Source of the DNA: Bradyrhizobium icense
GTDB taxonomy: Bacteria; Pseudomonadota; Alphaproteobacteria; Rhizobiales; Xanthobacteraceae
Reading direction: 5' to 3'
Length of the DNA stretch: 64,000 nucleotides
Assembly (NCBI RefSeq): GCF_001693385.1
Contig: NZ_CP016428.1
Coordinates: forward strand, 2,728,001-2,792,000
The position numbers and the translations under genes are program-made. A model generated the notes under the pieces. The model searched no databases. It saw nothing but the letters and a program-made list of their open reading frames with translations, and was not told the origin of the DNA. Below are positions 47,129 to 52,865 of the stretch, one piece after another (positions within the stretch are counted from its first letter, which is position 1; the number at the start of each line of letters is the position of its first letter).

Positions 47129-47146
47129 ATGGGAAAGGCCGCGGCT

Positions 47147-49555
47147 ATGGCGGACTTTGCTCCAGTCTCGCCTCGATCTTCGCCAGCCACTCAGCCCACA
47201 GGCTCGCCGATCCTGACGGCCGGCGGTATCGTCCTTGCAATCGGAGGACTTTATTTCGGCCGAGATATCTTTGTTCCCTTCGCCCTCGCCATCCTCTTAA
47301 GCTTTGTTCTCACACCGTTGGTAAACTTTCTAGGACGCTGGAGGTTGCCCCGCATTGCCGCGGTGCTGATTGCCGTTACCCTTGCCTTTATCCTGATTAC
47401 AGGCGTCGCCTTCGTGGTCGGGCGCCAGCTCGTCCAACTCGCTAACAATCTTCCGAGCTACCAGACTACTATCACTCAGAAAATCCGGTCCTTGCAGGAG
47501 TCCGCCCCAGGTGGCGGCGTCCTTAATAATATTACCAGAACGATAGAGGATCTCGGCAAGGACATCTCGGGCGACGAGAGGAAGCCTGAAGAGGCACAGC
47601 CTCGCGTCGGAACCGGCCCTAAGTCTCCGGAGCCGGTCACCGTGCGCCTAGAGGCACCACGGCCAAAACCCCTCGAGATCATCCGATCCGTAGTCGGCCC
47701 GCTGTTAGCGCCGCTCGCCACTGCCGGGCTGGTCGTCATCTTCGTGATCTTCGTGCTGCTAGAGCGGGAGGACCTGCGCGATCGCTTCATCAAGCTCGCA
47801 GGGGCCGGAGACCTTCAGAAAAGTACGCAGGCCATCAACGACGCCACCGCCCGGGTCAGTCGTTACCTCCTGATGCAGCTCGTCGTGAATCTGACCTACG
47901 GCATTCCGATTGGCATTGCCCTTTACTTCATTGGCGTGCCCAATGCCCCGCTGTGGGGGCTGCTAGCCGCGGTCCTCCGATTCATCCCGTATCTCGGTCC
48001 CTTCCTGGCCGCCCTGTTTCCCATTGCCCTTGCAGTCGCCGTTGATCCTGGCTGGACCATGTTATTCTGGGTGGTCGGGGTGTTCCTCGTGGCTGAACTG
48101 ATCAGCAACAATGTCGTCGAGCCATGGCTTTACGGCGCCAGCACGGGCCTGTCCTCTCTGGCCATCATCATTGCGGCAATCTTCTGGACCATGCTGTGGG
48201 GCCCTGTCGGCCTGTTCCTAGCGACGCCCCTGACCGTCTGCGCGGTCGTCATCGGGCGCTACGTCCCGCAACTCGAGTTCCTGGGCGTGCTTCTTGGCAG
48301 CGATCCGGTGCTTGCGCCGGAGGAGCAGCTTTATCAACGCCTGCTAGCCGGCAACCTGGAAGAGGCGGTGGAGATTGCTGAAGACTATGTCGACAAATAC
48401 TCCTCGCACGAGTTCTATGATAACGTGGCCATACCGGCACTGCGCCTTGCGGAAAACGATCGCCAGCGCAGCACGACGGATACCAATTACCGGCGGCTCG
48501 TTGCCGACACGGCGATCTCTGTTGTGCGGGAGGTCGAGGATCATATCCGGGAAAAGGCCTCCTCAGCGGCCGAGCGGGGTGAAGATCGCACAGCTGAGCG
48601 GCCACCGTGCGTTCTCTGCGTCGCCGGCCGCACTGAGCTAGATCACGCGGCGGCGGAGATGATGGCGCAGGTGCTCGAGGAACGGAGCATCAGCGCCAAG
48701 GTCCTGCCGCCGATCGCGGTCAGCCAGGGAGCGCTGGGGCAGCTAGGTCTCGAAGGCATCGAAGTGGTGTGCCTGTCCTATCTGCATCCCCAGCCGCAGG
48801 TCTATGCCCGGTACATCTTCCGTCGTCTGCGTCGCCGAGCCCCCCACGTGAAGCTCATCGTCTGCTCCTGGAATCTGGCGCACGGTACGCAACAAACGGA
48901 AGAGCTCAACAAGCAGATGGCGGCCGATGCGGTATTCGCCTCGCTTCAGGGCTGTATCAAGCAAGTTGATGAATGGATGTGCCGCCCAGCATCAGGCAGC
49001 GGTACGCGGCCGGTCCTTCCTGACGTTAGGCAAGCGCAGGTTGCAGCGCTGCACAGCCTCGGTTTGGCCGCCGCGAAAGGACAGCAGTTCGATGAGGCGT
49101 CCAAGAAGATCGCGCAGGCTTTCAATGTCCCGATCGCACTCGTATCTCTGGCTGACGATATTCACCCGGCCCAGCCAGACGCAATAGACCTGTCGCAGGA
49201 AAATCAGGCCATCAATCAGGCACCTCATGAGGAGCCGCTCGGCGCATACGTGATCGCGGCAAACGAAGTCCTGGTTTCCGAAGACGTGACCGGGGACCCA
49301 CGCTTTGCCGACGATCCACGCGTGCTGGAGAAGGGCATTCGCTTTTACGCAGGCGTCCCCTTGCGGACTTCAGCTGGACACGTCGTAGGCTCCCTTTGCA
49401 TCGTTGACACGCAGCCCCGCGAGTTTGTGGACCGAGATCGCCAACGCCTCGAGCAGATGGCCAACGAATTGATGGGTCAAATCGAGAGCCGCGCCACGGA
49501 ATCAGCAACGGGCCTTTCGGACCCGGTTGGACCAAGCGCTGCATCCGGGTCTTGA
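47147..49555 (+). CDS. AI-2E/PerM-family transporter fused to Rossmann-like and GAF domains
   Basis: The protein (about 800 residues) starts with a PerM/AI-2E exporter domain of about eight helices (residues about 20-375): IFVPFALAILLSFVLTPLVNFL, the polar periplasmic loop, LMQLVVNLTYGIPIGIALY, LWGLLAAVLRFIPYLGPFLAAL, NNVVEPWLYGASTGLS. A soluble region follows. At about 500-605 a Rossmann/B12-binding-like fold is suggested by PCVLCVAGRTELDHAAAEMMAQVL and GIEVVCLSYLHPQ. A GAF domain at about 640-790 reads FNVPIALVSLADD, VSEDVTGDPRFADDP, IRFYAGVPLRTSAGHVVGSLCIVD. Standalone PerM proteins are about 350 residues. The GAF domain could sense a small molecule and gate transport. ATG 47147 has GAAAGG upstream; 47129 is the other start. 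Confidence 0.85.
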   Translation: MADFAPVSPRSSPATQPTGSPILTAGGIVLAIGGLYFGRDIFVPFALAILLSFVLTPLVNFLGRWRLPRIAAVLIAVTLAFILITGVAFVVGRQLVQLANNLPSYQTTITQKIRSLQESAPGGGVLNNITRTIEDLGKDISGDERKPEEAQPRVGTGPKSPEPVTVRLEAPRPKPLEIIRSVVGPLLAPLATAGLVVIFVIFVLLEREDLRDRFIKLAGAGDLQKSTQAINDATARVSRYLLMQLVVNLTYGIPIGIALYFIGVPNAPLWGLLAAVLRFIPYLGPFLAALFPIALAVAVDPGWTMLFWVVGVFLVAELISNNVVEPWLYGASTGLSSLAIIIAAIFWTMLWGPVGLFLATPLTVCAVVIGRYVPQLEFLGVLLGSDPVLAPEEQLYQRLLAGNLEEAVEIAEDYVDKYSSHEFYDNVAIPALRLAENDRQRSTTDTNYRRLVADTAISVVREVEDHIREKASSAAERGEDRTAERPPCVLCVAGRTELDHAAAEMMAQVLEERSISAKVLPPIAVSQGALGQLGLEGIEVVCLSYLHPQPQVYARYIFRRLRRRAPHVKLIVCSWNLAHGTQQTEELNKQMAADAVFASLQGCIKQVDEWMCRPASGSGTRPVLPDVRQAQVAALHSLGLAAAKGQQFDEASKKIAQAFNVPIALVSLADDIHPAQPDAIDLSQENQAINQAPHEEPLGAYVIAANEVLVSEDVTGDPRFADDPRVLEKGIRFYAGVPLRTSAGHVVGSLCIVDTQPREFVDRDRQRLEQMANELMGQIESRATESATGLSDPVGPSAASGS

Positions 49556-50799: not shown

Positions 50800-51834
50800 A
50801 TGCCTATGCCGCGCCGGAAATATGCTTGGGAAAAGCTATCGGATGAGCAGTTGCTCAAGCAACGCCTCAGTAGCCTGAGGGTTGCGATCGAAGACACCTG
50901 GCTCGAGGATTGTCTCAGCACTCTCTATGAAGAGCTCGAAGGGCGGGGCATCCGGCTGCGGCCACACGCATGGATATCGAGCGAATGGTTTAGTCCGGCA
51001 AATGTACCCGGCATTGCCATTCCGTTCTATCTCACCCATCCCCGCCTGATGAAGATCGAGAAGAAAATGATGCTCGACGTCGAGGGCGGCACTTGGTCCG
51101 AGTGCATGGCCATTCTCCGTCATGAGGCAGGCCATGCCGTGCAGCACGCCTATCAGCTGCACCGCCGTCGGCGTTGGCAGCAGCTCTTCGGCCCGTCCTC
51201 GAAACATTATCCGCGCTACTACCGGCCTAATCCGGCTAGCCGGCGTTATGTCCAACATCTCCGGCTCTGGTACGCGCAGAGCCATCCGGACGAGGATTTC
51301 GCCGAAACCTTCGCGGTGTGGCTGCGGCCGCGTTCAAACTGGCGGACGCGCTATGCCGGTTGGCCAGCGCTGAAGAAGCTCGAATATGTCGACGAACTGA
51401 TGGACGAAATCGCCGGGAAGCGGCCGCCAAACACGACGCGGGAGCGTGTCGATCCGCTGCATGAGCTCAGCGAAACGCTTGGCGACCACTACCAAAAAAA
51501 GCAGGCGTTCTACGCCTTCAAGCCGCCGAAGACTTACGACCGCGACCTCTCCCGGCTCTTTTCCGCCGATCCACGGCATCGCCGGGAACAACCGGCTTCG
51601 GCCTTCATCAGGCGGCACCGCGCCCAAATCAGGCAGCTGGTTGCGCGGTGGACGGGCGAGAACCAACTTACGCTCGATGCCGTGCTTGATGACATGATCT
51701 CCCGCTGCCGCGAGCTCGATCTGCGTGCCGTCGGCTCCGACCGGAAGCTTATGATCGACTTCACCGTCCTGTTAACCGCCAAGACCATGCACGCGCTGTT
51801 CGGCCCGTCGCGGCGCAAATGGATCGCGCTATGA
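50800..51834 (+). CDS. Putative zinc metallopeptidase of a two-gene unit
   Basis: The 344-residue soluble protein has a zincin site: RHEAGHAVQHAY gives HExxH with His108, Glu109 and His112, and HPDEDFAETFAVWL (Glu169) can supply the third ligand. A basic stretch RRRRWQQLFG and PRYYRPNPASRRYVQHLR lie between the two. The C-terminal 130 residues are helical and Arg-rich. No signal peptide, so it acts in the cytosol. It matches the layout of putative zinc-binding metallopeptidases that I recall beside ATP-grasp ligases in other soil bacteria. Its stop codon overlaps the start of the ATP-grasp gene (ATGA), so the two are translated together. Substrate unknown. Confidence 0.8.
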   Translation: MPMPRRKYAWEKLSDEQLLKQRLSSLRVAIEDTWLEDCLSTLYEELEGRGIRLRPHAWISSEWFSPANVPGIAIPFYLTHPRLMKIEKKMMLDVEGGTWSECMAILRHEAGHAVQHAYQLHRRRRWQQLFGPSSKHYPRYYRPNPASRRYVQHLRLWYAQSHPDEDFAETFAVWLRPRSNWRTRYAGWPALKKLEYVDELMDEIAGKRPPNTTRERVDPLHELSETLGDHYQKKQAFYAFKPPKTYDRDLSRLFSADPRHRREQPASAFIRRHRAQIRQLVARWTGENQLTLDAVLDDMISRCRELDLRAVGSDRKLMIDFTVLLTAKTMHALFGPSRRKWIAL

Positions 51835-52865
51835 GACGCCTGCGCATTCTGGTGCTCATGCATCCGGACTTCGTGCCCCCGGACTCGACCGACGGATACA
51901 CCGCGCGGCAAATCAATGAATGGAAGACAGAGTATGACGTCGTGAGCACCTTGCGCACGGCCGGCCATGAAGTTCGCCCGCTCGGCGTGCAGGAGGAACT
52001 AAAGCCGGTGCGCGACGCGATCGAAGGTTTCAAGCCGCATGTGGTATTCAACTTGCTTGAGCAGTTTCACCATGAGCCCGTGTATGATCAGCACATCCCA
52101 AGCTATCTCGAGCTGATGCGAATCCCGTATACCGGATGCAACCCGCGTGGCCTGATCCTGGCGCGCGGCAAGGATCTGTCCAAGACGTTGGTGCACTATC
52201 GTCGGATCGCGGTACCGGCCTTCGCCGTGTTTCCGATGCGCCGCAAGGTCAAACGGCCAGCGCGCCTGGCGCTGCCGCTGATCGTCAAGAGCCTGAACGA
52301 GGATGGATCCTTCGGGATCTCGCAAGCATCGATCGTCGATACGGACGAGAAACTCGCAGAGCGCGTCGCCTTCGTCCACGAGCGGATCGGAACTGCCGCC
52401 ATCGCCGAGCAGTACATTGAGGGACGTGAGCTTTATGTCGGCGTGCTCGGCAACAATCGGCTGCGAGTTCTGCCGGTTTGGGAATTAAAATTCGGCACCA
52501 TGGGCGGCCCGAGCGCACGACACATAGCCACCGAAAAGGTCAAACACGATCCCAATTATCAGGAACGCGTCGGAATTGTAGATGGGCCGGCCAAGAACCT
52601 TACGCCGGAGGTATCCGCCCGTATTCAGGGAATAGCGAAACGCATCTACCGAACACTGGGGCTCGATGGATACGCGCGCATCGACTTTCGCCTTTCTACC
52701 GACGGCATCCCGTATTTCATCGAAGCGAACCCCAATCCCGAAATCGCGAAGAGCCAGGAGTTCGCTACAGCGGCTCGGTATGACGGGCTCGATTACCCGG
52801 ACCTGCTGCATCGGATTCTGGCTCTCGGACTAAGCCGGGCAAAGGCGGGCGTATCCGTAGGCTGA
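51831..52865 (+). CDS. ATP-grasp ligase of a two-gene unit
   Basis: The 344-residue protein has an N-terminal pre-ATP-grasp Rossmann-like part (RRLRILVLMHPDFVPP, VVFNLLEQFHHEPVYD) and an ATP-grasp domain. The latter has the first phosphate-loop strand LALPLIVKSLNEDGSFGIS, the EQYIEGRELYVGVLG adenine strand and the metal-binding end GYARIDFRLSTDGIPYFIEANPNPEI. The IPYTGCNP and FIEANPNPE motifs are those of D-Ala-D-Ala-ligase-like carboxylate-amine ligases. The start ATG 51831 overlaps the metallopeptidase stop by four bases. No cell-wall gene is near, so a role in making a peptide or amide metabolite is more likely than murein synthesis; the substrates are not known. Confidence 0.82.
   Translation: MRRLRILVLMHPDFVPPDSTDGYTARQINEWKTEYDVVSTLRTAGHEVRPLGVQEELKPVRDAIEGFKPHVVFNLLEQFHHEPVYDQHIPSYLELMRIPYTGCNPRGLILARGKDLSKTLVHYRRIAVPAFAVFPMRRKVKRPARLALPLIVKSLNEDGSFGISQASIVDTDEKLAERVAFVHERIGTAAIAEQYIEGRELYVGVLGNNRLRVLPVWELKFGTMGGPSARHIATEKVKHDPNYQERVGIVDGPAKNLTPEVSARIQGIAKRIYRTLGLDGYARIDFRLSTDGIPYFIEANPNPEIAKSQEFATAARYDGLDYPDLLHRILALGLSRAKAGVSVG

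Follow-up and report, generated by a model that had tools for sequence, protein, structure and literature searches.

The window, a stretch of 64,000 nucleotides at positions 2728001-2792000 of the 8.32-Mb single-contig genome of Bradyrhizobium icense, carries two overlapping genes on its forward strand. Among named organisms, its nearest protein relatives come mostly from Bradyrhizobium. The first encodes a putative zinc metallopeptidase and the second an ATP-grasp ligase with the fold of D-alanine-D-alanine ligase (Ddl). Their main features, in window coordinates, are as follows.

50800-51834, + strand: gene for a zinc metallopeptidase, putatively cytosolic (open reading frame, 344 amino acids)
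51121-51135, + strand: HEAGH zinc-binding and catalytic motif (H108-E109-A-G-H112), from the sequence
51304-51306, + strand: Glu169, candidate third zinc ligand, within HPDEDFAETFA, from sequence and conservation
51819-52865, + strand: gene for the Ddl-fold ATP-grasp ligase (348 amino acids from 51819, or 344 from 51831)
51831-51834, + strand: ATGA, in which the ligase start and the peptidase stop overlap by 4 nt, from the sequence (an option in 74 of 80 loci)
52722-52763, + strand: ligase acceptor-site segment EANPNPEIAKSQEF, E302-F315, aligned with EANTSPGMTSHSLV of E. coli DdlB

Two starts are available to the ligase. The one in the list of open reading frames, at 51819, overlaps the peptidase by 16 nt, and the one at 51831 overlaps it by 4 nt. 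Ligase M5, which start 51831 encodes, occupies a nearly invariant alignment column. In 74 of 80 relative loci the ligase could start in frame so as to overlap the peptidase by 4 nt; in the remaining six, 25 to 137 nt separate the peptidase gene from the nearest ligase start. The ATGA overlap reported in the preliminary description is therefore upheld as start 51831, and suggests translational coupling of peptidase and ligase. On inspection, neither protein has an N-terminal hydrophobic stretch, in keeping with the earlier view that both lack a signal peptide.

The association of the two genes was followed at the family level with one alignment profile per protein, run against the same 248 genomes (E ≤ 1e-20 for the peptidase and E ≤ 1e-80 for the ligase). 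The peptidase is found in 66 of these genomes and the ligase in the identical 66; the other 182 have neither at these thresholds, and none carries one gene alone. In all 66 genomes the two matches share contig and strand, and the spacing between the matched segments ranges from -13 to +26 nt. The pair occurs in 21 of the 47 genera of this sample and in 11 of its 17 genomes from the window's genus. A second collection, of genome contigs, gave 214 pattern matches and from these 183 relatives, the best 80 of which were examined, a set that partly overlaps that of the 248 family genomes. The ligase lies downstream of the peptidase in every one of these best 80 of 183 (three ligases, in L057, L084 and L127, are cut by contig ends), and by record title almost all of the 80 come from Alphaproteobacteria (Bradyrhizobium, Afipia, Xanthobacteraceae, Dongia, Reyranellaceae, Desertibaculum and further groups). 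Because this arrangement holds in 66 of 66 genomes of the family and in 80 of 80 loci of the second collection, the pairing is far beyond chance, and the pair is obligate among the genomes searched. The preliminary description had mentioned the same pairing in other soil bacteria and had named rare adjacency elsewhere as grounds for giving up a two-gene system; the first point was accurate, and wherever a search for both genes located them, they were neighbors. The pair is also present in MAGs labelled Gammaproteobacteria (SJ706, L077) and Rhizobium sp. Q54 (L052), possibly by misbinning or transfer.

A phylum-wide search with the single protein found the peptidase in 6 of 299 genomes, all of the window's genus, and a class-wide profile search gave a strong peptidase match in 4 of 289 genomes and a weak one in 9 more. 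The ligase adjoins the peptidase in all nine loci read from these searches (the window, five congeners and three other genera). A phylum search with a mixed profile recovered the window's genus only (9 of 398 genomes), which indicates that the pair's clade is narrow and uneven in the phylum and argues against universality. Both genes are under purifying selection (dN/dS about 0.09 to 0.16 in comparison with six relatives), and peptidase and ligase distances correlate with r 0.86 across 48 sequences, shared species history being uncorrected in this value. Since ligase and peptidase were not found apart, they should act on one substrate. We tentatively favor, at a little short of even confidence, the reading that the two genes work as a unit and encode a pair of cytosolic enzymes by which the terminus of a peptide or protein is edited.

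Of six neighboring genes in the window, four recur in none of the 80 pair loci and two in a single locus (L072), so that the pair is constant and its context variable; only 48 of the 80 loci span at least 20 kb, and the absence of neighbors thus partly reflects short contigs. The preliminary description had proposed a search for a third conserved neighbor, and an all-against-all comparison of open reading frames of at least 70 amino acids, from 44 of the 80 loci and the window, revealed no gene family spanning lineages. This absence of a third gene pointing to a protein target counts against the editing of a peptide or protein end. Judged from one example of each, the five clusters of widest spread have coordinates that overlap those of the pair. 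The next two, tried as third genes, were rejected as alternative-frame or antisense shadows of the pair together with a few unrelated members. Two further clusters (10 and 11 loci), both downstream of the pair, are confined to Xanthobacteraceae/Hyphomicrobiales MAGs. One of the clusters in this MAG group, seen in 10 of the 44 loci, is a convergent gene on the opposite strand whose product, as tested in L055, has a lytic-transglycosylase domain (SLT). In nine of the ten loci this gene directly follows the pair, and in L059 it is 6 kb off. The other contains neighboring open reading frames that include a homogentisate dioxygenase (tested in L060).

L055:12068-13138, strand opposite to the pair: convergent lytic-transglycosylase-type gene, SLT domain

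Among short open reading frames (18-120 amino acids, within 0.9 kb), the 14 largest clusters hold no locus from outside Bradyrhizobium, a result that covers these 14, clusters of up to 7 loci lying beyond them. This bears on a RiPP- or graspetide-like system, in which the ligase would cross-link or extend a ribosomal precursor, encoded elsewhere, and the zincin would remove its leader. A graspetide survey describes two branches, 7 and 8, of ATP-grasp loci that are linked to peptidases and have no predicted precursors (PMC8939145), a combination that by description resembles the window pair and speaks for such a system. We nevertheless judge it improbable: besides the short-frame result, no transporter gene spans the pair lineages in the 44 loci and the window, and the ligase has a Ddl-like fold and no match to any RimK-type Pfam model (E up to 1).

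The ligase matches PF07478 at 94.1 bits (cut-off 24), and its Pfam matches above cut-off are PF07478 and PF02655. It has the Ddl fold, that of a dipeptide ligase, in agreement with its earlier description as a D-Ala-D-Ala-ligase-like ATP-grasp enzyme. It retains the ATP and Mg residues, of Ddl type; K118, K157, E197, E204, R287, D289, E302 and N304 are invariant in 48 of 48 sequences, and S164, the counterpart of Ddl S150, is also kept in all 48. We take the D-Ala pocket of E. coli Ddl, in roles and numbering, to be formed by E15, S150, Y216, S281 and L282. The likeness to Ddl thus includes fold, ATP and Mg residues and the equivalents of S150, R255, D257, E270 and N272. In contrast, the equivalents of E15, Y216, G276, S281 and L282 are all replaced, the alignment around the Y216 loop being uncertain; from E. 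coli DdlB to the ligase, G276 becomes E308, S281 becomes Q/E313 and L282 becomes E314. By these residues, most of the D-Ala site is lost and the pocket is not that of a D-Ala-D-Ala ligase. The glutamates or glutamine at 308, 313 and 314, in place of carboxylate-holding residues, would suit a neutral or basic acceptor. A clear Ddl pocket, which the preliminary description had set against a two-gene system, is accordingly not what the alignment gave.

A variant cell-wall role would make the pair a second D-Ala ligase and a dipeptidase, as in VanA-VanX, or another editor of peptidoglycan precursors. The NCBIfam matches to the ligase, among the best 25 of 36 families, are all Ddl and Van ligases, and the lytic-transglycosylase-domain gene accompanies the pair in 10 of 44 loci. 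However, none of these best 25 of 36 reaches its curated cut-off, and the scores fall far below it: 108 against 245.65 bits for TIGR01205, 120.6 against 243 for NF002378 and, in a clear difference from VanA-VanX, 59.2 against 775 for VanA (NF012217). PF01820, the N-terminal Ddl domain, has no match in the ligase (E up to 1), whereas the genome's own Ddl matches it at 50.7 bits. That canonical Ddl is encoded elsewhere, beside ftsQ, and the paired ligase lies outside its cluster. With most of the D-Ala pocket lost, and with the SLT gene convergent and confined to one Xanthobacteraceae/Hyphomicrobiales MAG group, we disfavor a cell-wall role as highly improbable. The more specific identification of the paired ligase as the cell-wall Ddl is ruled out by pocket, scores and the separate Ddl.

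The zincin assignment of the peptidase, with HExxH and Glu169, has stood up. The protein matches Pfam PF15887 (Peptidase_Mx) at 33.9 bits against a cut-off of 27, which places it in that family, and PF15887 matches 50 of 50 aligned peptidase relatives (E ≤ 0.01). All 50 aligned proteins, that of the window among them, share H108, E109, H112 and E169, and an equivalent of E169 is also present in the peptidase of a divergent pair and in three homologs on phage-like contigs (see below). Comparison by hhalign of the window-type peptidase with four classic PF15887 members gives a probability of 95.9% over 73 columns, covering the HExxH..E core. The window protein matches positions 90-168 of the 236 in the PF15887 profile only and has no match to the PF10005 zinc ribbon (E up to 1), whereas the classic member at L136 has both PF10005 and a full-length PF15887 match. 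The window peptidase is therefore a putative divergent PF15887 member that lacks the N-terminal zinc ribbon of classic members; classic membership is ruled out by the missing PF10005 and the partial profile match. About 130 residues outside the catalytic core are conserved among relatives. The predicted structure has a mean pLDDT of 69.7 and a pTM of 0.48, with residues 146-179 and 196-216 below 50, and this poor modeling around the active site counts against the end-editing reading. A sequence search of the PDB with the peptidase profile gave one chance-level match only (E 0.043); plasmid records hold no match to the peptidase of the window or of the divergent pair (L147), and phage records none to those of L147 or L149. 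The only PF15887 matches in the window's genome are the window gene and a short match at 2639151-2639309 (profile positions 183-235, in an 89-residue frame), perhaps a decayed classic gene.

Classic PF15887 peptidases were read in ten wide loci, chosen before their contexts were viewed, and in 30 narrow ones, with one place (genome G102) common to both sets. In four of the ten wide loci (L135, L136, L138 and L140) they adjoin CP-ATP-grasp and Alpha-E genes, with transglutaminase and/or Anbu, and in six of the 30 narrow loci (L018, L019, L022, L027, L032 and L037) CP-ATP-grasp, Alpha-E, transglutaminase or Anbu lies within 1.5 kb. The Anbu-type context of L136 was checked with Pfam. The classic peptidase is thus possibly an extra member of the Anbu operon, and the peptidase family meets amide-ligase systems twice. 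Genes of such amide-ligase clusters are absent from the other six wide and 24 narrow loci (L038, among the 24, has a weak transglutaminase match), which argues against editing of a peptide or protein end. The Anbu operon (CP-ATP-grasp, Alpha-E, transglutaminase and Anbu) resembles the window pair in that an amide ligase accompanies a peptidase, with classic PF15887 beside it. Its ATP-grasp enzyme is, in contrast, circularly permuted, and the 80 pair loci have no match to CP-ATP-grasp, Alpha-E, Anbu or classic PF15887 (tblastn, E ≤ 1e-5). A transglutaminase-like match is present in two of the 80: L081, where it lies downstream of the pair at about 0.9 kb, and L085, at about 5.4 kb. The window's genome has two Alpha-E genes far from the pair, at 3426579-3427517 (L164) and 6079902-6080789 (L165).

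A scan of viral contigs revealed a divergent pair, L147, whose peptidase is 36% identical to that of the window over its full length and whose ligase, 62 nt downstream, is 37% identical over residues 75-341. The named homologs of this peptidase, four among the 120 listed, are two from Terracidiphilus, one from Acidobacteriaceae and one from a Clostridia-labelled MAG. The pair probably exists in Acidobacteriota, with adjacency there seen at one locus, L147, and the sequences point to a much older peptidase-ligase pairing. Three phage-like contigs carry the peptidase core (HExGH ... HPDEDFAETFA), at L148:3001-3585, L149:2992-3615 and L150:2413-3704, and none has a ligase within about 3 kb on each side. 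The peptidase family is therefore not always dependent on a ligase, which again weighs against the end-editing reading. By eye, L148 and L150 have a portal-like open reading frame, for which Pfam gives only a sub-cut-off match to DUF4055; L149 has a 5'-3' exonuclease gene, and the L150 frame at 2006-2572 has the look of a proteasome-type Ntn hydrolase, with no Pfam match. These phage-like homologs, together with the patchy distribution over 21 of 47 genera of the family sample, would fit a function in defence or in a mobile element, but neither protein of the pair has a PADLOC match (E up to 0.1) and both genes are under purifying selection, so that we consider this very unlikely.

Four distant, plasmid-borne relatives of the ligase were read (L142 to L145, about 30% identity). 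The neighbors of L143 are annotated as diaminobutyrate transaminase, SbnA, ornithine cyclodeaminase and a KamA-family protein, and that of L144 as lysine 2,3-aminomutase; the two ligases are 29% and 30% identical to the window's. L142 and L145 have no diamino-acid genes in the annotation of PLSDB, whose gene table is incomplete. By species, annotation places the Thioflavicoccus plasmid relative beside 2,3-diaminopropionate and KamA-family genes, the Mesorhizobium one beside lysine 2,3-aminomutase and that of Sinorhizobium NGR234 beside CapA and PEP-hydrolase-family genes. Two of four plasmid relatives beside small-molecule genes favor a metabolite product and argue against end editing. The pair could then be a module in which the ligase makes a dipeptide, or an amide of an amino acid and a polyamine, while the peptidase breaks this product down or regulates its amount. 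The dipeptide-ligase type of fold and an acceptor site that would suit a neutral or basic group are consistent with this. Against it stand the two plasmid relatives in which that incomplete table gives no diamino-acid genes, the absence of any amino-acid-synthesis, export or other third gene across the pair lineages, and the roughly 130 extra peptidase residues, which would be more than a small dipeptidase should need. We regard such a module as possible, though doubtful.

Two points lead us to prefer editing of a peptide or protein end over a small-amide module: the large size of the peptidase and the occurrence of its family alongside peptide-ligase systems. In this scheme, the ATP-grasp enzyme would activate a carboxylate with ATP to give an acyl-phosphate, to be joined to an amine other than D-Ala, and the zincin would hydrolyze a peptide or amide bond on the same substrate. 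The zincin may remove the group that the ligase has added, as writer and eraser in the manner of RimB for RimK, or it may trim the substrate in preparation for the ligase. The two enzymes would be kept in step by translational coupling, and the substrate would be encoded or made elsewhere. The activity of both enzymes, a common substrate, its nature as a peptide or protein and the order of the steps are inferred.

A eukaryotic parallel in logic is offered by tubulin, on which tubulin tyrosine ligase is an ATP-grasp-type writer and the detyrosinase MATCAP a zinc metallopeptidase that erases the C-terminal residue. The window peptidase gave no match to PF08014, the MATCAP family (E up to 1), and no structural link to MATCAP emerged; a PF08014 search of the window's genome was also silent, as were its control searches. 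By this analogy, the pair may run a cycle of writing and erasing at the terminus of a bacterial protein, with a Ddl-derived ligase and a zincin, in Alphaproteobacteria and Acidobacteriota, a proposal that we advance as speculative. A bacterial precedent that has been tested is the RimK-RimB(-RimA) system of Pseudomonas, in which RpsF is polyglutamylated and RimB is reported to remove the glutamates added by RimK and also to stimulate RimK (PMC11957791). There, too, an ATP-grasp ligase and a protease are co-encoded and add to and trim a protein tail (PMC11957791), but RimB is a retropepsin-like aspartic protease where the window partner is a zincin, and the window ligase has no RimK-type Pfam match. 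The pair is thus best described as an analog of RimK-RimB and not as a member.

As a principle, ligase with protease is known; its form here, a Ddl-derived ligase with a zincin, appears to be new. A search of the open-access literature, as far as the text of its articles was available, did not reveal an earlier report of the two genes together; a survey of amidoligases that Iyer and colleagues published in 2009, outside that search, may mention such neighbors. Databases name the proteins "D-alanine--D-alanine ligase" or "ATP-grasp" and "putative zinc-binding metallopeptidase", and the Ddl annotation is misleading. If the pair writes and erases a peptide tag, many soil bacteria would have an unrecognized cycle of protein or peptide modification; if its product is a small amide, a widespread metabolite would be missing from current maps. 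Just upstream of the pair, at window positions 47129-49555, lies a gene for an 808-residue protein that joins an AI-2E transporter domain to a C-terminal GAF domain, an unusual fusion.
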